The notes under the pieces: model-generated | What the model was told of the DNA's origin: nothing | Seen by the model: only the letters and a program-made list of their open reading frames with translations | Databases searched by the model: none | Shown here: in pieces, positions 9,857 through 64,000 of the stretch | Layout of the letters: every line of letters begins with the position of its first letter | Numbering within the stretch: the first letter of the stretch is position 1 | Origin: a candidate division KSB1 bacterium | Lineage (GTDB): Bacteria > Zhuqueibacterota > JdFR-76 > DREG01 | Assembly (NCBI GenBank): GCA_022566355.1 | Contig: JADFJB010000003.1 | Location: forward strand, 1 to 64,000 | Length of the DNA: 64,000 nt | Direction: 5' to 3' | Program-made: the position numbers and the translations under genes

Positions 9857-9875
9857 TATAACTCCCGTTAACTAT

Positions 9876-10805: not shown

Positions 10806-10942
10806 TTCCTATTTTCAACCTTTAAAAACAACAGAAAAGATTTGATTCGTTCAGATAGTTAAATTGAGCTTATTCAATTTTACGAAATATTTAATACAAA
10901 AATCAAGTTGAAAATTAAAAAAATGGATTTTTTTTCGGCTAT

Positions 10943-17977: not shown

Positions 17978-20206
17978 TTATTTTATTACAACAAACCTAC
18001 CGACTTTTTGATCTCCATTATCAGATTCGACTGAATAGAGGTAAATGCCGCTTGCAATCGGTCTGGTGTTTCTTGAAAGTAAGTTCCACCGAGCTCGGGA
18101 TGACATAGGATCGTCATGCCGGATGGTATCGACCAAATCACCATCCACGGTAAATATTCGAATGGTGCATTTTGCCGGGACATTTACAAAATCGATAACG
18201 CGGAAGTTTTCGACTGCAACATTATTCGGTAATCCAAAATCCTCAAAACCGGAACGCTCTATATAAGGATTAGGCTCAGTCCAGATCTCTTGATCACCAA
18301 AACCTCCTGAAGTCTCTGCTGCTGGTGAGGCGGCTATTTTAATTCCATTTATTAGTGGGCTCGAGGCTAAGGTTTCGATTCCAAATGAGGGGGCGCCGCG
18401 ATCAAAAGAAACTACTGCATAAGTGTATTCCAAACCATTTGGAACGTGGTCAACATAAGTGAAAGATAAACCTGTGTTGCGGCCTAAGTCATTATCCGGT
18501 AAATCATATTCTGCTAATATTTCAAAGGTTCCTAAAATACCGGTTGCACTTCTTAATACGCGGAATCCTTCGAAGTCCTTACTTTCATCTTCGGGTGTAT
18601 TCGGATCATCTGAAACAAATGGATCTTTAAAGTTCAATGGCAAATTAGGATCGTTTGCATCGTAGCCCGGGCTTGAGGGATCTGCTTCCGACCAATCCAG
18701 GGTTATTGTATGGTCGCCAGGGGTAACCTTGAGTGGTGGTGATGGCGGAGGTGGCGGACCTGTAAAATCAGGAACCCCGTCCCCGGTATCGATAACGCCG
18801 TCACCGTCCAAATCGTCACCGAAATAGCCATCTCCGTCGGTGTCGACGCCCGGGTTATCAAACATAATTCCTGCCATAAAGGCATTTCGACCTAAATCTA
18901 CAAAAGATGCCGGGTCGAATGAGCCCAATGCTTGTGATATGGCAGCATCACCTTCACCGCCAATAATAGCATAGGTGAATAAAACAGTATCACCAGGGGC
19001 AAAGATCTTAACTGTCTGACCAAACATTGGATCGCTCGGGTCAGATATGGTTTCTTCCGTAGCTCCAAGAGGACCGAAAGAAATTAAAAATCGTGAGTTA
19101 TCATTGGGATCGACACCAGCCGGAATATTTGGATTAAACTCCAGTGTCTCCGGATCGAATTGAGGATCATCAAAGGATCCATTACTCATGAAGACGTATT
19201 TTTCAACGTCAACTTCCGGGGTGCCGACTTGCTCTCCATCATTTGGATCACCGGTATAAACGTTAGGTGTTATCGGTCCCCAGTCGTTTTTTGTGCTGAT
19301 GTCGGAATCACTCATCCACCAGTTAAAAGAAACCTGGCCTTCTTCTGCTGTTGGCCGTAAAACCCGAACCCCTACAACACCGGGCATGCAACCATCATCT
19401 CCATCAGGCTCCACAACCCAGGAAGTATTTACTCTATCACCAGTGGAATTAAATTGCATAAATCCTGTGGCGTCATCTCTTTGGGACGCGTTTCCTATAC
19501 AGCCCATGTCATTGTCGGCAAAAAATCCAGCATAAGCATTCCTGATACGGTTATTCCCGATATTTATGATCACCAGGTCGAAAAAGACAATATCCTCGGC
19601 AAAAGATAGGGAAAACTGGTAACTTTTTTCGATTATTTCCAAACCGAGTGCACGTTGGTGTTTGGGTGGAGCAAATGGAAAGCCGGCAGCATTTAAAAAA
19701 GTATCTGAATATACCGCTATAAAGTCTTCTTCCGAGACCGCATCCGGATGGAAGAATGGACTACTCACAAGCGAAGAGCGAACTTCGATTGCCGAGCGAT
19801 CGTCAGGATAATGAGGAAAGGTCTCAGCAAAATCTACAACACTCCAGGCTGAAGTGCCCTCGGAAACCAGGGTATCTAAATCACCGGGGTCATTTAAATC
19901 GGGGCCGCTGGTTGCATCGGATGGTACAATACCGCCGAACCACAATGCGCCGCGATTGATATACCGTGCCTGTCGGCCTACGAGGTCGGTACCAGGCCAG
20001 AACACACCACCCGTTGAATTCGTACCAAACTGACCAAAATTGGTGACCATGACCCATATTTTCCCATTTCTATGCTGTCTTGAATCGGCAAAATAATTTG
20101 CAAATTGTGCGAACAGGTTTCCGCTGGATAAGAATAATAACACCATAAGGAAACCTATGCCGCGACTAATCAATTTCGTTTTCATAATTGCTCCTTTATT
20201 AAACAC
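17978..20206 (-). CDS. Large secreted protein with T9SS/FlgD-like C-terminus (copy 2)
   Basis: This 742-residue protein is a paralogue of the gene at 14577-16775. It has the same architecture: signal peptide, beta-rich body, acidic calcium-type loop (DTDGDGYFGDDLDGDG), Fn3-like segment (VTPGDHTITLDWSEADPS) and C-terminal sorting module ending VGRFVVIK. The annotated first codons (MFNKGAIMKTKL) include an internal Met at residue 8 that better fits the signal peptide; the ATG at 20185 is preceded by AAAGGAGCAATT, so 20185 is the more likely start. The function is unknown. It is probably surface-exposed and delivered with help from the adjacent PorV-like protein. Confidence 0.8.
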   Translation of the reverse strand: MFNKGAIMKTKLISRGIGFLMVLLFLSSGNLFAQFANYFADSRQHRNGKIWVMVTNFGQFGTNSTGGVFWPGTDLVGRQARYINRGALWFGGIVPSDATSGPDLNDPGDLDTLVSEGTSAWSVVDFAETFPHYPDDRSAIEVRSSLVSSPFFHPDAVSEEDFIAVYSDTFLNAAGFPFAPPKHQRALGLEIIEKSYQFSLSFAEDIVFFDLVIINIGNNRIRNAYAGFFADNDMGCIGNASQRDDATGFMQFNSTGDRVNTSWVVEPDGDDGCMPGVVGVRVLRPTAEEGQVSFNWWMSDSDISTKNDWGPITPNVYTGDPNDGEQVGTPEVDVEKYVFMSNGSFDDPQFDPETLEFNPNIPAGVDPNDNSRFLISFGPLGATEETISDPSDPMFGQTVKIFAPGDTVLFTYAIIGGEGDAAISQALGSFDPASFVDLGRNAFMAGIMFDNPGVDTDGDGYFGDDLDGDGVIDTGDGVPDFTGPPPPPSPPLKVTPGDHTITLDWSEADPSSPGYDANDPNLPLNFKDPFVSDDPNTPEDESKDFEGFRVLRSATGILGTFEILAEYDLPDNDLGRNTGLSFTYVDHVPNGLEYTYAVVSFDRGAPSFGIETLASSPLINGIKIAASPAAETSGGFGDQEIWTEPNPYIERSGFEDFGLPNNVAVENFRVIDFVNVPAKCTIRIFTVDGDLVDTIRHDDPMSSRARWNLLSRNTRPIASGIYLYSVESDNGDQKVGRFVVIK

Positions 20207-43105: not shown

Positions 43106-44209
43106 ATGATAGGTAAAACAATATCTCATTACAAAATCCTCGAAAAGCTCGGCAGTGGCGGCATGGGTGTGGTTTACAAAGCCCAGGACCTAAAACTCGA
43201 CCGCTTCGTCGCCCTTAAATTTCTGCCGCCACACATCAGCGCAGATGGGGATGAAAAGAAACGTTTTATACACGAAGCCAAGGCGGCATCTGCTCTACAG
43301 CACAACAACATCTGCACCATCCATGAAATCGGAGAGACGGATGATGGGCAGATGTTCATTTGTATGGACTACTACGAAGGGGAAACCCTCAAGAAAAAGA
43401 TCGAGCGCGGGCCTTTGAACCTGGAAGATGCAATCGATATTGCGATTCAAATTTCCCAGGGTTTGGCCAAGGCACATTCCAAAGAAATCACCCATCGAGA
43501 TATCAAGCCCGCAAATATTCTCATCACGGAAGAAAAGCAAGTCAAGATCGTCGACTTCGGACTGGCGAAGCTAGCCGGTCGGACAGTGCTTACCAAAGAA
43601 GGGACGACCATAGGAACGGTTGCCTACATGTCGCCTGAGCAGGCACAAGGTACGGAAGTGGACCATCGCACCGATATTTGGGCATTAGGAGTAGTTTTGT
43701 ATGAAATGCTTACTGGCAAGCAGCCGTTTGCAGGAGATTATGAACAGGCTGTGATGTATTCGATCATGAACGAAGACGCCGAGCCGATTACGGGTTTGCG
43801 GACCGGTGTGCCGATGGAATTGGAGCGGATTGTTAACAAGTGTCTGGAGAAAACTCCGGGGAATCGCTACCAATCGGTTAATGAACTTATTGTGGACTTG
43901 CGGCGGATAAGAAAAGTTGCTAATCCCGAGAACGTTGCTCCTGCAGCTTACAAGAAGTTAGAAACGGCGAGTTTTAAAAAGCGAGCATTTATCTGGATTG
44001 GAGTTAGTCTTGCTGTCATTTTCACGGCAATTGCTGGTTATTTGTTTCTTGCTAGAGAAGCAAGCAGTCCAGAACGTATCCCCATTGCAGTTGTGGACGT
44101 CATAAATGAGACTGGTGAGAAGGAACTAGATGGATTTATCCGGTCTGCTCATTACATCATTAGAGCAATCGCGGCGATTGTCTGTTCTCACTCGATCAAG
44201 ACTATTTGA
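43106..44209 (+). CDS. Serine/threonine kinase portion of a kinase-TPR protein (split)
   Basis: This 367-residue product has a complete Hanks-type kinase domain at residues 9-270: glycine loop GSGGMG (16-21), K38 in VALKF, HRDIKPAN (130-137), DFG (150-152), APE-like MSPEQ. A membrane helix follows at about 294-316. The outer segment PIAVVDVINETGEKELDG is cut at residue 343, where a one-base gain in a T run (GGATTTATCC, about 44135) shifts the frame and leads to a stop at 44209. The missing remainder is encoded in the next frame (44130-46031). The catalytic residues are intact, so the truncated product could still be an active membrane kinase. Confidence 0.85.
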   Translation: MIGKTISHYKILEKLGSGGMGVVYKAQDLKLDRFVALKFLPPHISADGDEKKRFIHEAKAASALQHNNICTIHEIGETDDGQMFICMDYYEGETLKKKIERGPLNLEDAIDIAIQISQGLAKAHSKEITHRDIKPANILITEEKQVKIVDFGLAKLAGRTVLTKEGTTIGTVAYMSPEQAQGTEVDHRTDIWALGVVLYEMLTGKQPFAGDYEQAVMYSIMNEDAEPITGLRTGVPMELERIVNKCLEKTPGNRYQSVNELIVDLRRIRKVANPENVAPAAYKKLETASFKKRAFIWIGVSLAVIFTAIAGYLFLAREASSPERIPIAVVDVINETGEKELDGFIRSAHYIIRAIAAIVCSHSIKTI

Positions 44210-46031
44210 CATTCTCAAGCAAATGGGCAAGCCGAACATCGAACAAATCGACGTGGAACTTGGGCGGGAGATTTGTAGGAAGGCAAACATTAACTTCCTG
44301 GCAATTGCCTCTATCAGAAAATTTGGCCGGGTTTATACACTTGACTTTAAGCTACTTGATACTAACAAGAACAGATATTTTCTGACCGCATCTGAAAACG
44401 GTGAAGGGCACGAGAGTATCCCTGATTTGATTGACAAACTGGCAAAAAGAATACGGCAAGGTTTTAAGGAGAAATCTAGCGAAATTCAGGCTGAAAGCCA
44501 AGCTGTTACAGAATTAACGACTTCAAATTTGGAGGCATATCGATATTATAATCTTGGCGAAACGCTCTTGAGTCAATTCAAATATAGAGAAGCTGCTGAA
44601 GAGTTCAAAAGAGCCGTCACCCTGGACTCGACATTTGCTCTTGCTCATTTCCGGTTGGCTTTTGCTAAACAGTATGGTGGTATGGGAGGGGACAAGGAAG
44701 CTATGCGGATGGCCATAAAATACATCGACAAAGTGCCTGAAAAAGAGCATTTTTTGATCAGGGCACAAGATGCATGGTTTAATAATAGACGGGAAAAGTC
44801 ATACACACTGTATCAGGAAGTTTTGAAAATATATCCTCAGGAGAAGGAAGCACTCCTTCAAATTGCCGAATATATGTTGCACCATACTTTGGATCCAATT
44901 TCCGCACTACAATATTTTGAGAAATCGGTCGATGCAGATCCTGGCTATGGGGATGGCCTGGGACATCTAATTTATCTGAATCACGCTCTAAAAAGACACG
45001 ATAAGGCAATCGAATATGCACTGCAGTTTGTTGATTTGCATCCGGGCGAGGCATCGTATCGCAGATTAGGAGAGACTTACTGCTTTGCTGGTCAATTTAG
45101 CAAGGCAGAAGAAGTATTGAATAGAGCCTTAGAACTATTCCCCCGAAGCCCAGGGCTAGTTATCACTAAGGCGAATATCCCAGTCTTTAAGGAGAGTTAT
45201 GAGACTGCAAAAGCTCAGATCACTGTGTTTCTATTAGATGCCAATTCCATATCGGAGCGAAGAATGGGTTCTCGATACCTGGCCGACTTATATGCTTATC
45301 AGGGAAAATATAAAGAAATTGAAGCAGTGTTTGACAAGATTATCGGGTTGGACTCGATGTCAGATCCAGATGCCAGGCTAAGATTTGATTACGCGGAAAA
45401 GGCATGGTGGCTTGCAGTCGGAAGGGGCGATGGAAACGCTGCTAAAACGGAAATTGAGAAGGCAAAAAGGATCGGAGGCCAACAAATCTCCTGGTTCTTT
45501 ATGTCTCTTTTGCGAACTTATTTGCTTTTGGGCGAATTTGATGCTGCCGATTCTAGTTATTCGGCTGCAATCGCTTTAGCTGGTGAGGAAATGCATCCTT
45601 TTAGGTCGCACCTGATTAATGGGTATAAATACAAATCTCGCCAGGAATTTGGCAAGGCTGCTGCCGAGTTTGAAAAGTGGATAGAAATTAGAGGCTCGTT
45701 TAACTTTTGGGACAAAGTATTTTATTTATACGAACTTGCAGGTTGTTATTTTAGCTTAGGCGATTACAAGAAAGCGATTGAAACCATCGCCAATATGCAA
45801 GGAATTTATATAACCTTTACGCCTAACAATAATTTACCTAGCTCACGTGGCGCCGTTTATCCGAGGGGCTTCCATCTTCTCGGCAAGATCTATGAGAAAC
45901 AAGGTGAACCTAAGCGTGCCATCGAAAACTACGAAAAATTCCTCGAAATCTGGAAAAACGCCGACGAAGATTTGCCGGATTTGATCGATGCGAAGGCGAG
46001 GCTGGCGAGATTGAAGGAAAACTCGAAGTAA
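44130..46031 (+). CDS. TPR sensor portion of the same kinase-TPR protein
   Basis: These 633 residues open in the frame that continues the kinase (LSGLLITSLEQSRRLSVLTR, RLFDILKQMGKPNIEQID). This is a TolB/FlgO-like segment, typical of the extracytoplasmic part of large FCB and acidobacterial STPKs. Tetratricopeptide repeats follow (AYRYYNLGETLLSQFKYREA, FALAHFRLAFAKQYGG, YRRLGETYCFAGQFSKAEEV, FHLLGKIYEKQGEPKRAIEN). The ATG at 44130 has no ribosome site, so this is more likely the second half of one 975-residue protein than a separate gene. Either a real frameshift mutation, a sequencing error or ribosomal slippage explains the break. Confidence 0.8.
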   Translation: MDLSGLLITSLEQSRRLSVLTRSRLFDILKQMGKPNIEQIDVELGREICRKANINFLAIASIRKFGRVYTLDFKLLDTNKNRYFLTASENGEGHESIPDLIDKLAKRIRQGFKEKSSEIQAESQAVTELTTSNLEAYRYYNLGETLLSQFKYREAAEEFKRAVTLDSTFALAHFRLAFAKQYGGMGGDKEAMRMAIKYIDKVPEKEHFLIRAQDAWFNNRREKSYTLYQEVLKIYPQEKEALLQIAEYMLHHTLDPISALQYFEKSVDADPGYGDGLGHLIYLNHALKRHDKAIEYALQFVDLHPGEASYRRLGETYCFAGQFSKAEEVLNRALELFPRSPGLVITKANIPVFKESYETAKAQITVFLLDANSISERRMGSRYLADLYAYQGKYKEIEAVFDKIIGLDSMSDPDARLRFDYAEKAWWLAVGRGDGNAAKTEIEKAKRIGGQQISWFFMSLLRTYLLLGEFDAADSSYSAAIALAGEEMHPFRSHLINGYKYKSRQEFGKAAAEFEKWIEIRGSFNFWDKVFYLYELAGCYFSLGDYKKAIETIANMQGIYITFTPNNNLPSSRGAVYPRGFHLLGKIYEKQGEPKRAIENYEKFLEIWKNADEDLPDLIDAKARLARLKENSK

Positions 46032-54354: not shown

Positions 54355-54591
54355 ATGGCATATGTGGTGAGCAAAAAATTAGATTGTCGATGGTTATACG
54401 ACCCACTTCCAATTATCCGCTTAAGTTGTGCTGTTCGACAATTAAATGCTGGAGAAATCATTGAAATGATATCAAATGATCCTGCAGCTTTGTATGATAT
54501 GAAAGCATGGAGTAAATTAACCGGCCATACCGTACTAGAAACAACAAATCGCCCAGACCATACTTGTTTTTTAATTCAAAAAAAGATATAG
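54355..54591 (+). CDS. TusA-like protein lacking the catalytic cysteine
   Basis: This 78-residue SirA/TusA fold protein has the family pattern LDCRWLYDPLPIIRLSCAV and AGEIIEMISNDPAALYDM..W. In TusA the signature is L-D-x-x-G-L-x-C-P-x-P, with the Cys carrying a persulfide. Here the positions are W13 for Gly and D16 for Cys, while P17 and P19 remain. It cannot carry sulfur in the normal way, unless C11 or C25 serves. It is 9 bp upstream of a TusA-like gene that keeps the Cys. It may be a structural or regulatory partner. Confidence 0.78.
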   Translation: MAYVVSKKLDCRWLYDPLPIIRLSCAVRQLNAGEIIEMISNDPAALYDMKAWSKLTGHTVLETTNRPDHTCFLIQKKI

Positions 54592-54600
54592 GAGATTTTC

Positions 54601-54840
54601 ATGGCTGAATATGAAATCAAAGAAACCTTGGATTGTAGTGGATTACTATGTTCAGAGCCGGTTATAAAAACAAGCAAAAAAATTAAAGAGTTAGAAGTAG
54701 GTGATGTATTTGAAATGATTTCCACCGACCCGGGTGCAATGCCCGATATGCAAGCATGGGCAAACCAGACCAAACATGAACTGCTGGAGTCTAGTGAGGA
54801 TGGGTCGCTGTACCGTTTTGTAATCAAAAAAACTCATTGA
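54601..54840 (+). CDS. TusA-family sulfur carrier protein
   Basis: This 79-residue protein retains the reactive cysteine C17 in LDCSGLLCSEPVIKTSKKI. The usual CPxP motif reads CSEP, with the first Pro replaced by Ser. The rest (VGDVFEMISTDPGAMPDMQAW) is typical. TusA proteins receive persulfide sulfur and pass it on to partners such as DsrE-type proteins, sulfur oxidation enzymes or tRNA thiolation. AGGAG overlaps the stop of the gene before. DsrE2-like gene follows 21 bp downstream, an order (tusA-dsrE) known from sulfur oxidisers. Confidence 0.87.
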   Translation: MAEYEIKETLDCSGLLCSEPVIKTSKKIKELEVGDVFEMISTDPGAMPDMQAWANQTKHELLESSEDGSLYRFVIKKTH

Positions 54841-54861
54841 ATTTTAAATGGAGGCAAAACC

Positions 54862-55383
54862 ATGTCAAAAGAAAATGGCACTCGTCGCCTTGCTTTAATC
54901 TCTAGTAAAGGAACTTTAGATTGGGCGTACCCACCATTTATTATGGCGAGCGCTGCCGGAGCGATGGATTGGGAGGTGGCAATTTTTTATACTTTTTATG
55001 GTTTACCGCTTTTAAAGAAAAAATTGGATGCAACAGTTACCCCGATTGGTAATCCTGCCATGCCCATGAAAATGCCTTTTGGCCCGAAAGGTTTTCAAAA
55101 CATTGATTGGAATATCCCAAATCTTTTGATGAGCAATATTCCCGGTTTCGACAATGTTGCTACAAGTTTAATGAAACAGACCTTTAAGAAAAAAGGTGTT
55201 GCCACAATTGAAGAGCTGCGGGAAATGTGTATTGAGATGGACAACGTGCGCTTGATCGGTTGCCAGATGACGATGGATGTTTTCGGTTTTAAACGAGAAG
55301 ATTTTATAGATAAATGTGAAATTGGTGGTGCGGCGACTTTTTTGGAATACGCCGCAGATGCGGATGTAAATCTATTTATTTAG
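54862..55383 (+). CDS. DsrE/DsrF/DrsH-like (DsrE2-type) sulfur-transfer protein
   Basis: This 173-residue protein starts with a GGAGG ribosome site. It has the DsrE2-type layout: RRLALISSKGTLDWAYPPFI at the start, an insertion with GNPAMPMKMPFGPKGF, and the conserved cysteine motif LIGCQMTMDVFGF near residue 143, with GGAATFLEYA at the end. In sulfur oxidisers, DsrE2 is encoded with rhodanese and TusA and is proposed to move sulfane sulfur in the cytoplasm. The classical DsrE2 has membrane segments; here the central part is amphipathic at best. It is third in the operon with the two TusA-like genes. Confidence 0.85.
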   Translation: MSKENGTRRLALISSKGTLDWAYPPFIMASAAGAMDWEVAIFYTFYGLPLLKKKLDATVTPIGNPAMPMKMPFGPKGFQNIDWNIPNLLMSNIPGFDNVATSLMKQTFKKKGVATIEELREMCIEMDNVRLIGCQMTMDVFGFKREDFIDKCEIGGAATFLEYAADADVNLFI

Positions 55384-55459
55384 GTATCACACTTTCTTTG
55401 ATTAGGATATGATACAAAATAGTAGGGTATACAGATTTTCTTGGAGATGCTCACAGAAG

Positions 55460-55546
55460 GGTCGCTTTTTTCGCGAAGCTCAAGCAGCCGTATCTCTTAA
55501 TCACGCTAACATTGCCGCGATTTATGAAGTTGATGAAAATCGATAA
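55460..55546 (+). pseudogene. Relic of a serine/threonine kinase (alpha-C region)
   Basis: One frame reads GRFFREAQAAVSLNHANIAA then IYEVDENR and stop. This is the alpha-C helix and beta-4 segment of the kinase family (intact version at 43270-43345: RFIHEAKAASALQHNNIC then TIHEIGE). The glutamate of the helix is kept. Nothing kinase-like precedes or follows in the same frame. It is an isolated fragment, 110 bp upstream of the GC-rich rhodanese-MBL gene. Confidence 0.6.
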
Positions 55547-55655
55547 CCAGGCTTTTATCGCAAAGAAGGAGGCAAAGAAGATATTCTCGGAAGGTTGAGA
55601 AACGATTAAGCGTTACATGCGTGTTGTAGAGCAACCTGATTGAAAGACAGAGAAA

Positions 55656-56879
55656 ATGACCAAACAACAAGCACAAAAGACGGAGTGGACGGTCCGGGAA
55701 CAGAAGGAACATCTGGATCGCCGTGCGAACTTCTTTATTCTTGATGTGCGCAACCGCGACGAGTTCTCCGTCTGGAAGATCGAGGGGTGGAAAACACCGC
55801 CCACATTGAACGTACCTTACTTCGAGATGTATGAGAAGGGCGGCAAGGACGACTTCATCGAGTCGATAATTGCCTATATCGAGATCGAGTTGCTTGGACA
55901 GTTACCCAAGGACCGACCGATCTTGGCCGTTTGTTCCAAGGGCAACACCTCGGCATACGTGGCCGAAGGCCTATGTCAGCTCGGTTACGACGCATTCAAC
56001 CTACAGGGTGGCATGCAGGCATGGGGCAACTTCTACGAGATCAACCCAGTCACCGAAAGCCGCGAGTTGAGCGTCTACCAGATCAGCCGGCCAGCGCGTG
56101 GCTGCTTGAGTTACATCATCGTAAGCGATGGCCAAGCGGTGGTCATCGACCCGTTGCGCCATATCGAAACATACCTCGACATCGCGAGCGCGAAAGGATT
56201 CCAAATTGAACACATCATGGAGACCCACGGCCATGCCGATCATATTAGCGGTGGGTCAAAGCTGGCCAAACAGCTCAACCGACGGTACTACCTCCACCCT
56301 TACGACGGCATCCACCTCCTTGATATGCTACCAGCTCGCATTCCTTTCGAGTACCTGCGTGACGGTCAGGCGCTCTCGGTCGGCAAGGCGAAAATCCAAA
56401 CCCTACATATCCCAGGTCACACACTTGGTAATGTGGCCTATCTTCTGAATGAAGCGTACTTGTTCACCGGTGACAGCATCTTTATCAACTCGATCGCCCG
56501 TCCGGATCTCGGTGGACGTGGGGAGACCTGGGCGGGGCTGCACTATCACTCCCTAAGAAGACTACTCGATTTTCCCGACACGACGTTTGTGCTACCGGGT
56601 CACTTCAGCACTCCACGCGAAGCCAACGTCGCCGGGCTTTTCATGGCTTCCTTGGGCGAGCTAAAGGAGAAGAACGAGGGCCTGCACATGGCCCAGAAGA
56701 GCGAAGATGCGTTTGTACAGTACATTTTGGGAAGCCTACCGGAGTTCCCGTCGCAGTACGTTGAGATCAAGCGGGTAAACGCGGGCCTGCTTCTCGTCGA
56801 CGAAGTTAAGGCGAGTGAGCTTGAGCTAGGAAAAAACGTCTGCGCGTTGGCGCAAGCCTACGAAACAGAGTCGACTTGA
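55656..56879 (+). CDS. Rhodanese plus metallo-beta-lactamase (persulfide dioxygenase-like) fusion
   Basis: This 407-residue protein has a rhodanese domain at residues 8-135 with active-site loop VCSKGN (C93), then an MBL domain at 140-360. The MBL motif is THGHADHISGG (H191, H193, D195, H196), with GHTLGN and FTGDSIF. The order resembles persulfide dioxygenase (ETHE1/Blh)-type enzymes that oxidise glutathione persulfide to sulfite, with rhodanese supplying or accepting sulfur. Here the rhodanese is N-terminal, not C-terminal as in CstB-like fusions. The gene is visibly GC-richer than its neighbours, with G/C-ending codons throughout (CGC, CTG, ATC, GAC), which suggests horizontal transfer. 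Confidence 0.88.
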   Translation: MTKQQAQKTEWTVREQKEHLDRRANFFILDVRNRDEFSVWKIEGWKTPPTLNVPYFEMYEKGGKDDFIESIIAYIEIELLGQLPKDRPILAVCSKGNTSAYVAEGLCQLGYDAFNLQGGMQAWGNFYEINPVTESRELSVYQISRPARGCLSYIIVSDGQAVVIDPLRHIETYLDIASAKGFQIEHIMETHGHADHISGGSKLAKQLNRRYYLHPYDGIHLLDMLPARIPFEYLRDGQALSVGKAKIQTLHIPGHTLGNVAYLLNEAYLFTGDSIFINSIARPDLGGRGETWAGLHYHSLRRLLDFPDTTFVLPGHFSTPREANVAGLFMASLGELKEKNEGLHMAQKSEDAFVQYILGSLPEFPSQYVEIKRVNAGLLLVDEVKASELELGKNVCALAQAYETEST

Positions 56880-56918
56880 GCACCGCATGAGTTGAGGAAT
56901 CATAAGAAGGGATTAAGT

Positions 56919-57063
56919 ATGAGAATGACATTCGACAAGGTTCTGGATGCACGCGGGCTCGCCTGCCCCATGATCGGATATTAAAACCAAGGCATATGCA
57001 ACAATGGCCGAGGATTCTACTAAACTAATAGTATTTACATATAGTATTTACATAAAAAAATAG
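56919..57063 (+). pseudogene. Third TusA gene, frameshifted
   Basis: AAGGG precedes ATG 56919, and the first frame gives MTFDKVLDARGLACPM then a stop at 56982. It keeps the classical L-D-A-R-G-L-x-C-P-M motif. The next frame from 56977 continues DIKTKAYATMAEDSTKLIVF, the following TusA strand and helix. A short indel after the CPM breaks the gene (the second Pro of CPxP is also lost). It shares the GC-rich start of the rhodanese-MBL gene, 39 bp after it, and was probably acquired with it. Confidence 0.75.
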
Positions 57064-57195
57064 ATGGTACCAGGCGTTGGGGGATAAATTCCATACAAGA
57101 GTTATTTTCGTGATACAAAGATTAAAAATCGATATTCTTTGATATTTGAGAGGATGCAAAGGCACAATTAGGAAAATTACGGGGACAATTATTAA

Positions 57196-57254
57196 ATGAT
57201 CGGCAAACCATCCTCCACTACAAATTTCTCTCCAAACGCGACGACCACAATTGA
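57196..57254 (+). pseudogene. Relic of a kinase 5' end (first of two)
   Basis: ATG 57196 encodes MIGK; after a one-base loss the reading continues ILHYKFLSKRDDHN and a stop. With the base restored it is MIGKTILHYKFLSK, matching MIGKTISHYKILEK of the intact kinase at 43106. The fragment ends before the glycine loop. Confidence 0.6.
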
Positions 57255-57419
57255 AACAATTGGGTAGTTTCAAATGCGACAAAATTATCTATTTACACAA
57301 ATATACAAACAAAGTCAAAAAATCATTGATTTTTAACTTATCAATTTGTAAAATTCAATATCGTAGAAACGGAAATATCTCCTGACTAAAATCAAAAACT
57401 ATCTTGTAATAACCATATC

Positions 57420-57546
57420 ATGATCGGCAAGACAATATTTCACTAAAAAAATTCAAATATCGCGTGCTGGCCAAGGTATTTCAGATATTTTCAAGATACT
57501 TAAGCAGAGCTTGGTCAAAACAATGAAAACTAACCTGGATCGTTAA
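57420..57546 (+). pseudogene. Relic of a kinase 5' end (second of two)
   Basis: ATG 57420 gives MIGKTIFH and a stop; with one base restored it reads on as YKKIQISRAGQGISDIFKIL to a stop at 57544-57546. Residues 1-10 match the kinase start; the rest is only faintly like the glycine loop region. The reading ends immediately before the ATG of the ferredoxin-NrfD gene, so decay of this gene has shaped that gene's leader. Confidence 0.55.
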
Positions 57547-59217
57547 ATGCAATTTGGATTCATTATCGACAACCGTAGATGTATTGGTTGCCACGCTTGT
57601 ACTGTAGCATGTAAAGCAGAACATGATACTCCTCTGGGTGTCAATCGAACCTGGGTTAAATATATTGAGAAGGGTGAATTCCCAAACACACGCCGCTTGT
57701 TTTCGGTCATGCGCTGCAACCACTGTGCGGATGCGCCCTGTGTGGAAATTTGTCCTACCGGGTCCTTATTCACTCGTGAAGACGGCATCGTCGATTTTGA
57801 TAAACGTCGCTGTATCGGCTGTAAAGCTTGCATGCAAGCCTGTCCCTACGACGCGCTTTACATCGACCCTGAAACGGATACAGCGGCAAAATGTAACTAT
57901 TGCGCCCATCGAGTAGATATTGGTTTAGAGCCGGCTTGTGTAAATGTTTGTCCAACTCATGCGATCATTTCCGGTGATATGGACGATCCGCAATCGGAAA
58001 TATCTCAACTATTGGCTCACGAGAAAGTCACGGCAAGGAAAGTCGAAAAAGGAACTCAACCTAAATTGTTCTATATCGATGGAGATGAGGCGTCTTTAAA
58101 TCCAGCTGCAACAGATCAATCGAGTGATTATATGTGGAACTCACAAATCTCCGGAGTCGGCCATTTTGCCAGCTATGCTGAAAATCGGATTGCAAGTTCT
58201 GATCCACAAGAATTGCTCAATCAATTAACCGGCAGTAACGGTGATGATAAACAATGGCTATCCAGTGAGAAAAACCCCAAAGAAAAAGTGCTAGTTCCTG
58301 AAAGCCAAGGTAGCGAAATTATCCAACAAAAAGCCAAAGATGTTGTCGAAGAAACAACCAAGCGAGTTTATGATAGTCCGGGTAAAGGAGTCTTGTGGGG
58401 TTGGGAAGTGCCGGCTTATATCTGGACCAAAGCGGTTTCAACGGGTGCATTCCTGGTTCCTTTCCTGGCATTCGTGGGTGGTTTTTCTTCGGTTAGCGAC
58501 CCAGTTCAATGGCTTGGATTGAGCCTGGGATTGTTATTTCTTGTTTTAACCAATATTCTGCTAATTAAGGACTTGGATCAGCCATTTAGATTTGCTTATG
58601 TTTTGCTAAGACCCCAGTGGCGATCCTGGCTGGTCCGTGGTGGCTATGCAATCACTTTTTATGGTGGATTGTTGACCGCCGGGATTATTACAAAGTTAAG
58701 CGGATTAACCAATCTGGAAATTTTGGTAAAATGGCTTTGTGCAATCGTCGCAGTTATAACTTCTGTTTATACCGCATTCTTACTTGCCCAGGCTAAAGGC
58801 CGCGATTTTTGGCAGAGTCCGATCTTACCGTTTCATATGATCGTTCACACAATGCTAGCTGGTGCTGCTATTTTTGCTTTTCTGTCACCCATAGCCGGAT
58901 TTGATCAAAGTTGGCATACTTATTTGGATCATGTTTTTTACACGTTTATTATTCTAAACTTACTGATTATTAGTGTGGAGTTATTTACACCACACCCGAC
59001 AGCAGATTCAAAGGTCGTTGTAGATATGATAATACGTGGACGGTTCAAGAGGCTATTCAAAGTGGGTGTTGTCATTATGGGCAATATCGTTCCATTATTC
59101 TTTGTTTTGTTGGGCAGCCCGGAATTATTGCCGTTTGTGGGTTTGTTGATTTTGATGGGGATCTATTTCACAGAACATATCTGGGTGCTGGCGCCGCAAC
59201 TGGTTCCATTAAGTTAG
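57547..59217 (+). CDS. Ferredoxin-NrfD fusion, SoeB/SoeC-like electron transfer and membrane subunit
   Basis: These 556 residues combine two proteins. Residues 1-190 are an NrfC/SoeB-type four-cluster ferredoxin: CIGCHACTVAC (12-22), CNHCADAPCVEICP, CIGCKACMQACP and CNYCAHRVDIGLEPACVNVCP. After a polar linker, from residue 290 is an NrfD-type membrane protein with about eight helices (GWEVPAYIWTKAVSTGAFLV is the characteristic first helix). In PsrABC and SoeABC complexes these are separate proteins that pass electrons between the molybdenum subunit and quinone. The catalytic subunit gene follows 73 bp downstream. The ribosome site is weak. The fusion would fix the stoichiometry. Confidence 0.9.
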   Translation: MQFGFIIDNRRCIGCHACTVACKAEHDTPLGVNRTWVKYIEKGEFPNTRRLFSVMRCNHCADAPCVEICPTGSLFTREDGIVDFDKRRCIGCKACMQACPYDALYIDPETDTAAKCNYCAHRVDIGLEPACVNVCPTHAIISGDMDDPQSEISQLLAHEKVTARKVEKGTQPKLFYIDGDEASLNPAATDQSSDYMWNSQISGVGHFASYAENRIASSDPQELLNQLTGSNGDDKQWLSSEKNPKEKVLVPESQGSEIIQQKAKDVVEETTKRVYDSPGKGVLWGWEVPAYIWTKAVSTGAFLVPFLAFVGGFSSVSDPVQWLGLSLGLLFLVLTNILLIKDLDQPFRFAYVLLRPQWRSWLVRGGYAITFYGGLLTAGIITKLSGLTNLEILVKWLCAIVAVITSVYTAFLLAQAKGRDFWQSPILPFHMIVHTMLAGAAIFAFLSPIAGFDQSWHTYLDHVFYTFIILNLLIISVELFTPHPTADSKVVVDMIIRGRFKRLFKVGVVIMGNIVPLFFVLLGSPELLPFVGLLILMGIYFTEHIWVLAPQLVPLS

Positions 59218-59290
59218 GAAAGCGCCTAAAGCGCCAAAATTGCCAAATGCTTATTATCATATATTTTTTGGTTACCAATAGGAGAATTTA

Positions 59291-62152
59291 ATGTCCGACC
59301 GGAATTCGGGAAATCTAATTGAAAAAATAGCCGAGAAACTGCACCTCATTCCAAATCTACATACAGAAACTGGACCCGATCTTCAAAGTTTAACCGAAGC
59401 TGGCAAGCTAACGGATTTTCCTCCTATCGAAAAGTGGGACGATTGGGTTGAATATGAAGCGAAAAGCTGGCCGCGACGCGACCCCAAGCATTATATGATC
59501 ATACCAACGACATGCTTTAATTGTGAAGCCGGCTGTGGTTTACTAAGCTACGTCGACAAAGAGACTATGACTGTCCGAAAATTTGAGGGCAATCCTTATC
59601 ATCCAGCCAGCCGAGGGCGGAATTGTGCTAAGGGGCCGGCAACGATCAATCAAATTAATGATGAGGACAGAATCCTTTATCCGATGAAACGAAAAGGCAA
59701 GCGCGGGGAAGGTGGCTGGGATCGCGTTTCGTGGGATGAAGTTTTGGATGATTTTTCGGGACGAATACGAAAAGCGCTTCAGGAGAAACGAAATAATGAA
59801 GTCGTTTATCACGTTGGTCGACCGGGTCATGAGGGTTATATGGATCGAATACTACAGTCCTGGGGTGTGGATGGCCACAACAGCCACACCAATATTTGTT
59901 CTGCCGGTGCGCGATTTGGTTATGCGATTTGGCATGGTTTCGACCGGCCTTCTCCGGATCATGCCAATGCAAAATTAATATTGCTGATCTCTGCTCATCT
60001 TGAGTCCGGACATTATTTTAACCCTCATGCACAAAGAATAATAGAAGGATTAATGAACGGTTGCAAATTGGTGGTTATGGATCCACGGCTCTCCAATACC
60101 GCCAGTATGGCTGATTATTGGCTGCCTACTTATCCAGGCAGTGAAGCGGCCGTGCTTTTGGCCATGGCAAAAGTGATTCTCGATGAAAGCCTTTTCGATG
60201 AAAAATATTTACATGATTGGGTAAACTGGCAAGAGTTTCTGCAAAAAGAACATCCAACTGTAGAAGTAAACTTTGCTAATTTTATTCGATTGCTGAAAGA
60301 AACCTACCAGGAATACACACCGGAATTCGCCGCTAACGAAAGCGGAATTGATGCCGAGACCATTATTGAGGTCGCACGCAAAATAGGTGAAGCCGGAAGT
60401 CGATTTTCATCCCATAATTGGCGCAGTGCGGGTAGCGGAAATTTAGGTGGCTGGGCTGTTTCGCGCTGTTTGCATTTTTTGAATGTGCTCACGGGTAGTG
60501 TCGGAACAGTGGGGGGGACGTCGCCAAGCGGTTGGAACAAATTTAAACCAACTGTCTTTGATAAGCCACCCGCACAAAAATTCTGGAATGAATTGCATTT
60601 TCCAAACGAATATCCGCTCGCACATTACGAAATGAGTTTTCTATTGCCGCATTTCTTGAAAGAGGGGAGAAGTAAACTGGATGTGTATTTCACCCGGGTT
60701 TTTAATCCGGTATGGTCTTTTCCTGATGGTTTTACCTGGATTGAAGTATTACAGGATGAAAGCAAAATTGGCCTGCACGCTGCCTTAACACCCACCTGGA
60801 ATGAAACAGCGTTTTTTGCGGATTATGTTCTGCCGATGGGCCATGCAAGCGAGCGGCATGACTTGATCAGCTACGAGACCCATTCCGGCATGTGGATTGC
60901 TTTTCGTCAACCTGTTTTGCGTGAGGCTGCTCGAAAAATGGGTAATCCTGTCCAATTTACTTATGAGGCTAACCCTGGAGAAGTGTGGGAGGAGGACGAG
61001 TTTTGGGTCGAATTATCCTGGCGGATTGATCCGGATGGGAGCCTGGGGATTAAAAAACATTTTATGTCCCCTTATAGAAAGGGAGAAAAAATCACCATTG
61101 ATGAATATTATCAATTCGTTTTTGATAATGTACCTGGGTTGCCGGAAAAAGCGGCTGAAAAAAAGTTGACTCCACTGGAATATATGCGAATTTACGGCGC
61201 TTTTGAGGTGGAGAAAACTTCATATCATAAGCATCTAAAACCGCTAACAAAAGAAGAATTAAAGAAAACTAAGGTGGATACAAAAACGGGAACGATTAAA
61301 ACGAAAGAAAAAATTGTCGGTGTTTTTGCGGATGGAAAATCTTATGCCGGATTCCCGACGCCTTCTAAAAAGCAAGAGTTTTATTCCCAAACGATGGTCG
61401 ATTGGAATTGGCCAGAATATAAAATTCCAATTTATATAAAAAGTCATGTTCATCCGGATCAAATGGATCGAAGCAAAGGAGAGTTCCCATTGGTGCCAAC
61501 TTTTCGGTTACCGACCCTGATTCATTCCCGATCTGGTAATGCCAAATGGCTTATGGAAATTTCGAATCGCAATCCAATTTGGATGCATACTTCAGATGGA
61601 AAAGACCTGGGAATAAAGACAGGGGATTTGCTGCGGGTAAATACAGACATCGGTTATTTTGTCGATCGGGTTTGGCTAACAGAAGGGATGAAACCGGGCA
61701 TCGTGGCGTGTTCTCACCATCTCGGCAGGTGGCGGCGGCCACAAGATGCTAAGGGAAATCGATGGGCAACCAATTTGGTTTCCATCAAACAAATGAAAAA
61801 TGGCAAATGGAAAATGAGGCAATTGGATGGCATCCGCCCCTATAAAAGCAACGATCCGGATTCGTCCCGTATCTTTTGGAGCGATGGCGGTGTACATCAA
61901 AATCTCACTTTCCCTGTTCATCCGGATCCAGTCAGCGGTATGCATTGCTGGCATCAAAAGGTGAGAATTGAGAAAGCGCATCCGGAAGATAAATATGGCG
62001 ATGTGGTGGTCGATACCAATCGCTCCTTTGAAATTTATAAAGAATGGTTGAAAAAAACTCGTCCGGCGCCAGGTCCAGGAGGATTGAGAAGGCCGCTTTG
62101 GCTGAATAGACCGCTCCGTCCATCGGAAGAGATGTTTTACATCGATTTATAA
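59291..62152 (+). CDS. Molybdopterin oxidoreductase, SoeA/PsrA-like, cytoplasmic
   Basis: This 953-residue DMSO-reductase superfamily enzyme has the N-terminal 4Fe-4S motif CFNCEAGC (C75, C78, C82) with C112 in GRNCAKGP. The molybdenum ligand position is C203 in NICSAGARFG. The bis-MGD binding regions include VMDPRLSNTASMADYWLPT, GGTSPSGWNKF and ADYVLPMGHASERHD, and a C-terminal molydopterin-binding domain (LRVNTDIGYFVDRVWLT). There is no Tat signal, so it works in the cytoplasm, as SoeA does, unlike the exported PsrA/PhsA. Given the sulfur-transfer genes upstream, sulfite oxidation to sulfate with electrons to quinone is the best inference; polysulfide, nitrate or formate chemistry is not excluded. 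Confidence 0.85.
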   Translation: MSDRNSGNLIEKIAEKLHLIPNLHTETGPDLQSLTEAGKLTDFPPIEKWDDWVEYEAKSWPRRDPKHYMIIPTTCFNCEAGCGLLSYVDKETMTVRKFEGNPYHPASRGRNCAKGPATINQINDEDRILYPMKRKGKRGEGGWDRVSWDEVLDDFSGRIRKALQEKRNNEVVYHVGRPGHEGYMDRILQSWGVDGHNSHTNICSAGARFGYAIWHGFDRPSPDHANAKLILLISAHLESGHYFNPHAQRIIEGLMNGCKLVVMDPRLSNTASMADYWLPTYPGSEAAVLLAMAKVILDESLFDEKYLHDWVNWQEFLQKEHPTVEVNFANFIRLLKETYQEYTPEFAANESGIDAETIIEVARKIGEAGSRFSSHNWRSAGSGNLGGWAVSRCLHFLNVLTGSVGTVGGTSPSGWNKFKPTVFDKPPAQKFWNELHFPNEYPLAHYEMSFLLPHFLKEGRSKLDVYFTRVFNPVWSFPDGFTWIEVLQDESKIGLHAALTPTWNETAFFADYVLPMGHASERHDLISYETHSGMWIAFRQPVLREAARKMGNPVQFTYEANPGEVWEEDEFWVELSWRIDPDGSLGIKKHFMSPYRKGEKITIDEYYQFVFDNVPGLPEKAAEKKLTPLEYMRIYGAFEVEKTSYHKHLKPLTKEELKKTKVDTKTGTIKTKEKIVGVFADGKSYAGFPTPSKKQEFYSQTMVDWNWPEYKIPIYIKSHVHPDQMDRSKGEFPLVPTFRLPTLIHSRSGNAKWLMEISNRNPIWMHTSDGKDLGIKTGDLLRVNTDIGYFVDRVWLTEGMKPGIVACSHHLGRWRRPQDAKGNRWATNLVSIKQMKNGKWKMRQLDGIRPYKSNDPDSSRIFWSDGGVHQNLTFPVHPDPVSGMHCWHQKVRIEKAHPEDKYGDVVVDTNRSFEIYKEWLKKTRPAPGPGGLRRPLWLNRPLRPSEEMFYIDL

Positions 62153-62173
62153 TATGCTCTAGTTAGCTGGATA

Positions 62174-62499
62174 ATGAAACGAAAGAAAATACCATACGGA
62201 ACAAAATTACCTGTCATGCTAACCTTACGTGAACGGGATATCATCCGTGATGAGACATTCTGCGATCAAGACTTTGCAAAATTGGCTTTAGTAGACGGCA
62301 AAAGGATTAAAGTCGAACTGTCATTGGGGACATCGAGGAAATTCAGGGGTACATAGCAGCCGAGGCAAATCATACGAAAAATAAAAAACTCAAGAAAGAA
62401 CTTGATCGCCTTTTCGATAAACTTCAGGTCTTTCTGGATACTTACGATGATCAACATGAATTAGACAGCTTACAAATTCATCCAGCCGACCGGGAATAA
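62174..62499 (+). pseudogene. Small conserved protein, frameshifted at a G run
   Basis: The first frame encodes MKRKKIPYGTKLPVMLTLRE, RDIIRDETFCDQDFAKLALV, DGKRIKVELSLG and would stop at 62354. Adding one G to GGGG at about 62327 restores DIEEIQGYIAAEANHTKNKK and LKKELDRLFDKLQVFLDTYD to a stop at 62497. The joined protein is about 108 residues and looks like a widespread uncharacterised small protein with a helical C-terminus (AAEANHTK motif). It may be a real mutation or an assembly slip in the homopolymer. Confidence 0.65.
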
Positions 62500-62622
62500 C
62501 GCTTGTTTGATTTTTGTTCCTGGCTCGTGGCCGGCGGCTGGTGATAGCGTTATTATAAGCGGTTCTTCAATTTTAATCATTTTTAGAAGCTTTTTCCCCT
62601 TAAAACGTCATTTATTACTTAT

Positions 62623-64000
62623 ATGGAAATCTCCAAAATAACCGATCATATTCGAACTTATAACAAAACACTATTTCGCCGTGATATTATCGCTGGGCTC
62701 ACCGTCACCTTTGTGGCAATCCCGCAATCGATGGTCTATGCACTTATTGCTGGTGTTGAACCGCAATATGGTTTGTACGCTTTTATGGTGGGTTCAATTG
62801 TCGGATCGATTTTTGGTTCATCACGTCATCTGAACACTGGGCCAACGAATGCCACATCAATAGTTATTGCCAGCACCCTGGCTTTATATTCTGTTGATGA
62901 CCAATTTTTGAAGATGGTTTTTCTATTGGGATTCCTTTCTGGATGTTTGCAACTAGGTGCCGGACTTTTAAAGTTGAGCAACTTAACTCATTTTCTTTCT
63001 CGCTCAGTATTAGCTGGTTTTATCGGCGGGGCGGGCCTTTTTATCATTGTCAACCAGATGCCCAATTTAATGGGATTTTCAAAAAATACTAATTCCTCTG
63101 TATTTGAGGGAGTAAAACACATATTTAACAGTTTGGATCAAATTCAACCAACTGTTTTATTGGTGGGAATTGGATCTATTTTATTAACACTCCTTATTAA
63201 TAGGCTAAGCCCAAAAACAACTTCAGGAATTCCCATTTTACCGTCGTACCTGATTTCTATTTTATTGTCAGCGGCAATTGTTGTGATATTTGATCTTGGA
63301 GATACAGTCAAAGTGGTGGGAGATATCCCCAGGTCTCTGCCACCTTTAAGCATGCCACTATTTGAGTTGGAATCTATTCAAACTCTGATGCAAGGCGCAA
63401 TAGCGATAGCATTTATAGGATTAGCAGAAGCTACGTCTGCAGCCAAAATAGTAGCAGACTTTGCTGGTGATAAGCTGCAAGTTGACAAAGAATTTAGAGG
63501 CCAGGGACTTGCAAAAATTGCAACATCCTTTTTTAGCGGAATACCTGTTTCGGGCTCATTTACCAGGAGTTTACTTTGCTACAGAGCAGGTGCAGAGACA
63601 AAAATGGCGAATATTATGGCCGGTATTTTTGTTGCAATTGCCGTGTTATTTTTTGGTCCGGTTATTAAACACATCCCATTAGCGGCTTTGGCTGGTATTG
63701 TTATGTTGATTGCAAGCAATATGGTTGATTGGAAATACGTTAAAATGGCTCTTCGCTCATCGAATGTGGATTCATTAGCTATTCTTGCAACTTTTTTTGC
63801 TGCCCTGTTTTTTTCATTGGTCACTGCAATTTATATTGGTGTGGGGTTTTCCCTGGTCCTGTTCCTTCGCAGGGTAAAGAAGCCTAACCTTGTTGAGTTG
63901 ATATACGATGATAAGTTCGGGTTCAAAGAAAAAACTGAATCTAATCAAAGTTCCATTCCTGAGCTTACCATTATCCATGTTGAAGGAGATGTTTTTTTTG
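62623..64000 (+). CDS. SulP-family inorganic anion transporter (3' end outside window)
   Basis: The first 459 residues are visible. The transmembrane domain covers about 12 helices: DIIAGLTVTFVAIPQSMVYA, LIAGVEPQYGLYAFMVG, SVLAGFIGGAGLFIIVNQMP, IAFIGLAEATSAAK, GIPVSGSFTRSLLCYRAGA. A C-terminal STAS domain begins around residue 450 (LTIIHVEGDVFF). SulP proteins carry sulfate, bicarbonate or similar anions by symport. Its position after a putative sulfite oxidase suggests sulfate export or uptake. Many bacterial SulPs instead take up bicarbonate. It starts 123 bp after a frameshifted small gene. Confidence 0.88.
   Translation, partial: MEISKITDHIRTYNKTLFRRDIIAGLTVTFVAIPQSMVYALIAGVEPQYGLYAFMVGSIVGSIFGSSRHLNTGPTNATSIVIASTLALYSVDDQFLKMVFLLGFLSGCLQLGAGLLKLSNLTHFLSRSVLAGFIGGAGLFIIVNQMPNLMGFSKNTNSSVFEGVKHIFNSLDQIQPTVLLVGIGSILLTLLINRLSPKTTSGIPILPSYLISILLSAAIVVIFDLGDTVKVVGDIPRSLPPLSMPLFELESIQTLMQGAIAIAFIGLAEATSAAKIVADFAGDKLQVDKEFRGQGLAKIATSFFSGIPVSGSFTRSLLCYRAGAETKMANIMAGIFVAIAVLFFGPVIKHIPLAALAGIVMLIASNMVDWKYVKMALRSSNVDSLAILATFFAALFFSLVTAIYIGVGFSLVLFLRRVKKPNLVELIYDDKFGFKEKTESNQSSIPELTIIHVEGDVFF

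Follow-up and report, generated by a model that had tools for sequence, protein, structure and literature searches.

A probable sulfane-sulfur oxidation operon in a candidate division KSB1 bacterium, with a rhodanese-MBL gene in the place of the sHdr-LbpA core

How did a candidate division KSB1 bacterium come to carry, side by side, genes for sulfur transfer, a rhodanese-MBL protein and a membrane-linked molybdoenzyme, and what might they do together? The window, i.e., the whole stretch of 64,000 nt analysed here (contig JADFJB010000003.1, assembly GCA_022566355.1), carries them in a block at positions 54355 to 64000, all on the + strand, in the order tusA1-tusA2-dsrE2, rhd-MBL, a broken third tusA, a soeBC fusion, soeA and sulP. 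Every gene that a sequence-only reading had named there was recovered, at or near the position it gave, with support from Pfam families. The block has arisen by remodelling of an sHdr-LbpA operon, a history which that reading could not see, and we consider it (with a probability of about 0.72) an operon for the cytoplasmic oxidation of sulfane sulfur in which the central engine was exchanged, sHdr-LbpA giving way to rhd-MBL.

The head of the block consists of tusA1 (54355 to 54591), tusA2 (54601 to 54840) and dsrE2 (54862 to 55383). Both TusA proteins match PF01206 (55.1 and 80.3 bits), and the DsrE2-like sulfurtransferase matches PF13686 (DrsE_2, 162.9 bits) far above its cut-off and NCBIfam NF047629 with 205.8 bits, narrowly under the equivalog cut-off of 210. 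TusA1, a paralogue conserved in the phylum, had been described as Cys-less; the catalytic CPxP cysteine is indeed replaced (LDCRWLYDPLP), but three other cysteines remain, of which C11 is invariant among relatives. In the alignment, the CPxP cysteine is D, G or E in all eight TusA1 found, and this form, kept in eight of nine genomes, is under purifying selection (dN/dS 0.075 to 0.16). Literature searches found no description of a Cys-lacking TusA, which is weak evidence of absence. Plasmid-borne relatives of TusA1 are no more than 44% identical to it, and an AlphaFold model made from one sequence had a pLDDT of 49, too low for use. The sulfur carrier TusA2 has kept its cysteine, with an altered active site (LLCSEP versus CPMP in the aligned relatives) that the sequence-only reading had passed over; the CSEP motif could reflect a function weakened after the loss of sHdr.

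Eight other genomes of the phylum have tusA-dsrE2 at the head of a type II sHdr-LbpA operon. The order in a genome of the same family (G001), obtained by tiling three contigs (C60, C212 and C283), is tusA1-tusA2-dsrE2-lplA-dsrE-lbpA-shdrC1-B1-A-H-B3-etfBA-hdrDE-like-soeBC-soeA-sulP, and in G032 the triad, sHdr and soeBC-soeA lie together on one contig and one strand. Compared with G001, everything from lplA through the hdrDE-like gene is missing from the window, and rhd-MBL with the tusA stub occupies that place; homology breaks exactly at the stop codon of dsrE2 (87% identical to G001, 78 to 87% across eight genomes of the phylum) and restarts at the start of soeBC. The sHdr-LbpA core genes, a complete set in, e.g., the relatives G032 and G054, are absent from the window, and neither sHdrB1, sHdrH nor LplA was detected in its genome (98.5% complete), where the sole match to LbpA is GcvH-like (37%). 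Within the sample, the sHdrB1 and sHdrH queries matched the other seven genomes with the triad and no others. A chimeric contig, with the sHdr genes lost in assembly gaps, is very improbable: the draft does have 213 contigs and one gene of deviant GC, but both flanks are native, in the order and orientation of the relatives, the missing segment was sought with three separate queries and not found in so complete a genome, the two TusA of the window are the only ones in it, and the gene-poor junctions are as AT-rich as the genome is.

The gene in the place of the core, rhd-MBL (55656 to 56879), encodes a putative persulfide dioxygenase/sulfurtransferase with Pfam domains Rhodanese (residues 14 to 124) and Lactamase_B (147 to 316). 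Its GC content is 0.547 and its GC3 0.681, against 0.382±0.038 (maximum 0.507) in the 32 other long ORFs; the unusual composition once ascribed to the whole block applies to this gene only. The best full-length match in relatives is at 35%, and identity to the homologue at the KatS3mg041 locus (Bacteroidota, L114) is 53 to 56%, so that rhd-MBL looks foreign and horizontally acquired. The metal-ligand motifs THGHADH, HIPGH, TGDS and PGH are conserved with L114, the first conforming to the THxHxDH pattern of persulfide dioxygenases (PDO), while the match to the Blh model was partial and weak (60 bits, cut-off 625) and an AlphaFold model from two sequences was too poor for use (pLDDT 38). Among haloarchaea and Bacillota, MBLs with the rhodanese first are common, and a tusA lies immediately 3' of the same type of rhd-MBL both in L114 and in a Sporosarcina plasmid. 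The broken third tusA of the window (56919 to 56984), rightly recognised from the sequence alone, runs for 22 codons that include LDARGLACPM and then stops (MRMTFDKVLDARGLACPMIGY); it is probably the decayed second gene of an imported rhd-MBL-tusA cassette. The left junction (55384 to 55655) is geneless and contains a scrap resembling a piece of a protein kinase. No remnants of lplA or shdr were found in the junctions, the repeats flanking the insert are just short and mostly AT-rich, and a search of 56870 to 57546 against plasmids gave nothing. As for plasmid-borne sHdr clusters, the Acidithiobacillus plasmid inspected had sHdrB1 alone, without the cluster.

These features could also be read as an operon in decay, with sHdr lost, the triad left over and an unrelated detoxification gene landed beside it. 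The broken tusA, the gene-poor junctions and the altered TusA2 motif fit that idea, which we nevertheless find unlikely: tusA1, tusA2, dsrE2, rhd-MBL, soeBC, soeA and sulP have each stayed intact, dsrE2 has remained close to that of G001, and rhd-MBL retains its active-site residues. Moreover, KatS3mg041 has the same set in an operon-like order on one strand (rhd-MBL-tusA-dsrE2-soeBC-soeA-sulP). In view of this locus and of the rhodanese-first MBLs mentioned above, the claim that the combination is unprecedented is not supported.

Downstream, soeBC (57547 to 59217) codes for a four-[4Fe-4S] ferredoxin subunit fused to an NrfD-like membrane anchor (Fer4_11 and NrfD PF03916, 53.5 bits), with 16 clustered cysteines and at least seven hydrophobic segments. 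The soeA product (59291 to 62152; 953 aa; Pfam Molybdopterin, Molybdop_Fe4S4 and Molydop_binding) is a predicted cytoplasmic molybdoenzyme, with an N-terminal [4Fe-4S] Cys motif conserved in 97 to 98 of 98 homologues. The reported lack of a Tat signal was borne out and extends to 97 of the 98, the exception being an ArxA-like outgroup. Formate dehydrogenases have a Cys or Sec Mo ligand followed by His; here the ligand, Cys203, is followed by Ser, as in 97/98 homologues. Phylogeny and gene order had been proposed as checks on the assignment, and neither pointed to formate enzymes or to a chance arrangement. In a tree with long branches, without a nitrate enzyme or an authenticated SoeA or PsrA, and with an Azoarcus plasmid match that looks ArxA-like (Tat signal, arx-like regulators) as outgroup, the family forms a clade separate from E. 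coli FdnG, DmsA and PhsA-like proteins. Of 74 loci where this could be tested, 70 have fused soeBC immediately 5' of soeA, and nearly all relatives share the fusion, whereas characterised complexes have separate soeB and soeC genes; literature searches found no description of a fused SoeBC, again weak evidence of absence. The family is widespread, with 69 to 83% identity across several phyla and 56 to 62% in haloarchaea, Thermomicrobium and Rhodococcus. Between soeA and sulP there is an orphan ORF of 60 aa (62174 to 62356) with no family, seen, among the loci searched, solely in the window's own genome. The anion transporter gene sulP (62623 to 64000, running on to contig position 64350; 575 aa; PF00916, 307 bits) also adjoins soeA elsewhere, in G001 and at many further loci; an outward transport of the anion by SulP is a guess.

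Genes for PDO, SulP, TusA, DsrE2 and TauE are concentrated next to the SoeBC-SoeA pair (near/far enrichment, P 4e-11 for SulP and 4e-5 for PDO), while at 29 of 85 SoeA loci, many on short contigs, no sulfur gene of those counted lies within 6 kb. Because of this conserved context, the route from persulfide through sulfite to sulfate, with electrons passed to quinone, is well supported. That the genes are functionally unlinked neighbours by coincidence is hardly credible and already contradicted by synteny: several KSB1 genomes with SoeA have the triad absent or on another contig, but G001 and G032 have one co-directional operon, triad and SoeA occur together in seven of the eight triad genomes (hypergeometric P 7e-5, uncorrected for kinship), and the enrichment points the same way. 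Somewhat more weight, though still well short of likely, goes to SoeBC-SoeA being another membrane molybdoenzyme near sulfur genes, either a polysulfide/thiosulfate oxidoreductase or a formate:quinone oxidoreductase like the tentative FqoABC. Its best relatives among solved structures and NCBIfam models are ArrA, PsrA/PhsA and DmsA, the tree is without an authenticated SoeA, and a complex of C. tepidum (CT0494) has been tentatively assigned to formate oxidation (PMC8076601). Against it stand the missing Cys/Sec-His signature, the separate clade, the absence of a Tat signal where Psr/Phs face the periplasm, and neighbours that make sulfite (PDO, sHdr) or export it (TauE).

With the exchanged engine as the preferred reading, the ancestral operon would have delivered sulfur through tusA1-tusA2-dsrE2, converted sulfane sulfur to sulfite with sHdr-LbpA, EtfAB and the HdrDE-like protein, and ended in soeBC-soeA, for the oxidation of sulfite to sulfate with transfer of electrons to quinone, followed by sulP. 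The window genome would then have lost the stretch that begins with lplA and ends with the hdrDE-like gene, with a foreign rhodanese-MBL-tusA cassette in its place and the tusA of the cassette decayed. The rhodanese domain may now receive protein-bound persulfide from TusA2 and DsrE2, sulfite would be formed from persulfide and O2 by the MBL domain, and SoeA would oxidise the sulfite in the cytoplasm, with SoeBC passing electrons to quinone; TusA1 might act as a conserved non-carrying partner of TusA2. The entry point of sulfide or thiosulfate was not found: a sulfide:quinone oxidoreductase query, run with no positive control, gave no match in the window's genome.

The many-subunit sHdr-LbpA, which recovers electrons through carriers, and persulfide dioxygenase, a single O2-consuming protein that conserves no energy, are treated as alternative routes to sulfite. 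Here one appears to have been exchanged for the other in place, with suppliers and consumers kept, which favours the view that TusA/DsrE2 feed both machines and that both yield sulfite. Since the flanking genes stayed, the interchangeability of the two machines becomes testable, and the same-family pair of genomes gives a basis for asking the energy and oxygen cost of the exchange. The exchange also opens the way to a direct complementation test. A conserved TusA without the carrier cysteine raises a new question for sulfur trafficking. More tentatively, at rather less than even odds, sHdr-LbpA and the rhodanese-persulfide dioxygenase may be interchangeable cassettes between a fixed TusA1-TusA2-DsrE2 delivery and a fixed fused SoeBC-A, with the dioxygenase taking protein-bound rather than small-molecule persulfide via its rhodanese domain and TusA1 as a required non-carrying partner.

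Among known systems, sHdr-LbpA converts protein-bound sulfur to sulfite (PMC6067878), and its type II operons (shdrC1B1AHB3 plus etfAB; PMC11582611) share with the window the tusA-tusA-dsrE2 head on one strand; the relatives have the full type II set, although soeBC-soeA closes their operon and the CPxP cysteine is missing from one TusA, whereas the window has rhd-MBL instead of the whole core. PDO produces sulfite from glutathione persulfide, and in Beggiatoa SoeABC went undetected while PDO was active (PMC11507549). With rhodanese/MBL persulfide dioxygenases, rhd-MBL shares both domains and a complete metal-ligand motif, and its type sits near tusA, dsrE and tauE; however, type III PDO and CstB have the MBL first and Blh a sulfurtransferase, against rhodanese first here. 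KatS3mg041, whose cluster we did not find described as a system in the literature, has the same modules but an intact tusA, no TusA1 and a distant DsrE2. The SoeABC of Allochromatium vinosum and Aquifex aeolicus has in common a molybdopterin and [4Fe-4S] catalytic subunit without Tat signal, a four-cluster Fe-S subunit, an NrfD-like anchor and a sulfur context; B and C are one protein in the window, and the likeness, known here from genes, is one of domain features and context. The fused family lies outside the taxa listed for SoeC (Proteobacteria, Clostridia and Aquificae; PMC8076601) and, spread over many phyla, could be a main membrane sulfite dehydrogenase outside Proteobacteria. Finally, Chlorobi loci carry soeBC-soeA-tauE-x-tusA/dsrE2, with SoeA 70 to 71% identical but neither sHdr nor rhd-MBL. 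Presumably they belong to the same family as PSRLC3 of green sulfur bacteria. The latter has been named as an alternative sulfite-oxidising system (PMC6338057).

The block at 54355-64000 is a remodelled operon, with one predicted sulfite-making machine where its relatives have another. The genes named in the sequence-only reading were all borne out, on the same strand, by gene calls and family profiles: tusA1 (54355-54591), tusA2 (54601-54840), dsrE2 (54862-55383), a rhodanese-first MBL-fold gene (rhd-MBL, 55656-56879), a tusA stub (56919-56984), the fused soeBC (57547-59217), the molybdoenzyme gene soeA (59291-62152) and sulP (62623-64350, running past the window end), with an orphan ORF of 60 aa between the last two. 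The proposed pathway, from persulfide to sulfite and then sulfate, was largely right, and the remodelling is more informative than the pathway idea itself.

The left-hand genes form the head of an sHdr operon. Among 82 genomes of the phylum, DsrE2 has a counterpart at 78-87% identity in only eight others, seven of which carry two tusA genes upstream, as in the window (G030 has the second tusA only). In all eight, the region continues into dsrE, lbpA (GCV_H family), shdrC1, shdrB1, shdrA, shdrH and shdrB3 (split over three contigs in G001, of the same family as the window's genome). A lipoate-ligase-like gene often follows dsrE2, and etfB and etfA are often found downstream of the shdr genes. 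The gene set matches that defining the type II sHdr system (PMC11582611), and LbpA proteins and their ligases have been described in the sHdr pathway (PMC6067878). The right-hand genes form that operon's tail. G001 contig C60 stops within lbpA (residue 57), C212 picks up at residue 77 and stops within shdrA (residue 220), and C283 starts at shdrA residue 207 and continues with shdrH-shdrB3-etfB-etfA-hdrDE-like-soeBC-soeA-sulP on a single strand; we infer one joined operon, which the split genes fit. The order is independent of this joining, because G032 carries the tusA1-tusA2-dsrE2 triad, sHdr genes, hdrDE-like gene, lipoate genes, an ArsR regulator, soeBC and soeA on one strand of a single 95-kb contig.

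The DNA match to G001 (54363-55385, 73%) ends at the dsrE2 stop codon and resumes at 57556 (70%), just past the soeBC start, with no match between 55385 and 57556. G001 has ca. 12 kb of genes (summed over three contigs) where the window has rhd-MBL, and no remnants of lplA or shdr genes were detectable between dsrE2 and soeBC. In a sample of 59 genomes, sHdrB1 and sHdrH queries picked out precisely the other seven triad genomes (sHdrB1 identity at least 80%, against less than 28% for all remaining matches) and not the window's own genome (4.6 Mb, 98.5% complete, 213 contigs), where LplA had no match and LbpA matched solely a GcvH-like protein (37%). The GC3 of rhd-MBL is 0.681, against 0.382±0.038 for 32 long window ORFs. 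The closest full-length protein in the phylum sample is 35% identical to it, versus 53-56% for the one in KatS3mg041 (Bacteroidota). Both there and in a Sporosarcina plasmid, tusA lies directly 3' of the rhd-MBL-type gene, and the tusA stub is therefore best explained as a decayed remnant of an imported cassette's second gene. No trace of mobile elements was seen around the insert. The gene-free junction (55384-55655) contains a scrap like a Ser/Thr kinase N-lobe (EAQAAVSLNHANIAAIYEVDENR). At the DNA level nothing in the rest of the genome matches it; it resembles the intact kinase at 43106. This kinase ORF (43106-44209) and a TPR ORF (44130-46031) overlap in different frames, and are probably one frameshifted kinase-TPR gene. 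Elsewhere in the window, large secreted proteins that resemble each other are encoded at 14577-16775 and 17978-20206, a tandem duplication around a PorV-like outer-membrane protein gene (16860-17915).

None of the eight TusA1 proteins keeps the CPxP cysteine, whose position holds Asp, Gly or Glu, and the seven that were aligned all share the upstream C11 and the next proline, P17. Low dN/dS values (0.075 for G024/G035, with dS 0.69; 0.075 for G032/G054 and 0.16 for window/G001, both with dS near saturation) mark tusA1 as a maintained gene rather than a pseudogene. Its product may be a partner of the adjacent TusA2 that carries no sulfur itself, or a carrier via C11. The TusA2 motif is CSEP in the window and CPMP in relatives, which may reflect its new partner or weakened function.

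The Mo-ligand C203 is present in all 98 SoeA homologues and followed in 97 by Ser, which distinguishes the family from formate dehydrogenases; a Tat-like signal is confined to the Azoarcus outgroup. In a tree with a small reference set and some long branches (including Sulfurovum, at the base of the clade), the family forms its own clade, distinct from FdnG and DmsA of E. coli and from PhsA-like enzymes. The window SoeA groups with that of G001 and is therefore native to the lineage; its closest named relatives include candidate division KSB1 MAGs. Relatives at 69-83% identity occur in KSB1, Calditrichota, Bacteroidota, Chlorobi, Acidobacteriota, a planctomycete, SAR324 and a spirochaete, and at 56-62% in Thermomicrobium, Rhodococcus and haloarchaea. 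The fused soeBC lies directly 5' of soeA in 70 of the 74 loci with room for it. Sulfur genes cluster beside the pair: in raw counts that ignore kinship of loci, SulP was found 35 times within 3 kb versus 3 at 3-10 kb, PDO/rhd-MBL 24 versus 7, TusA 9 versus 0, DsrE2 10 versus 0 and TauE 9 versus 0. Gene orders include soeBC-soeA-tauE-x-tusA/dsrE2 (Chlorobi), dsrE2-tusA-soeBC-soeA (Rhodococcus pRHL3) and rhodanese-tauE-soeBC-soeA-mrp-mobA (a Natrinema plasmid). The pair is also carried by a megaplasmid of Thermomicrobium roseum, which has an sHdr cluster (PMC6776052). No counted sulfur gene lies within 6 kb in 29 of 85 loci (L089, L113 and others), in part because their contigs are short. In a Pyrinomonadaceae MAG (L058, 1894-11494), more than 4 kb separate soeBC from the downstream soeA, itself divided into a short N-terminal stretch (7894-8061) and the remainder (8624-11494), an insertion or rearrangement inside the pair. 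In genus g21, SoeA paralogues on G048:C312 (L016, L034) and G024:C20 (L025, L033) have repeated or broken C-terminal tails, with extra copies of residues ~863-951 and stops at the junction, by partial duplication or decay.

From family knowledge, TusA2/DsrE2 would deliver persulfide (PMC6067878, PMC11507549), which rhd-MBL, by its domain content and place in the operon, would oxidise to sulfite. Context strongly favours SoeA as the enzyme that would oxidise sulfite to sulfate, with electrons passing via SoeBC to quinone; SulP, at a guess, might be a sulfate/anion exchanger. Downstream of sulP (contig C3 64763-70354; L004 763-7354), inspection revealed mobA-, moeA- (opposite strand), modA-, molbindin-, modB- and modC-like genes, which look like a molybdenum cofactor and molybdate supply set for SoeA. 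Farther on (71622-73478; L004 7622-7924 and 8648-9478), a fragment that almost exactly repeats the C-terminal portion of an adjacent intact FabI-like gene is a partial gene duplicate.

Among known systems, SoeC has been reported in Proteobacteria, Clostridia and Aquificae only, and the C. tepidum complex containing CT0494 was tentatively assigned to formate oxidation (PMC8076601), with CT0496-CT0494 called a putative polysulfide oxidoreductase elsewhere (PMC12285230). The fused two-gene SoeBC-SoeA family has its genes arranged differently and shows no formate dehydrogenase signature. PSRLC3 of green sulfur bacteria has been mentioned as an alternative sulfite-oxidising system (PMC6338057). We take it to be probably of the same family as the window's SoeBC-SoeA. 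Beggiatoa leptomitoformis, with PDO, Rhd, TusA, DsrE and SoeABC (the last undetected by proteomics) in a genome without sHdr and rDsr, provides a precedent for this gene set, although its genes are scattered (PMC11507549).
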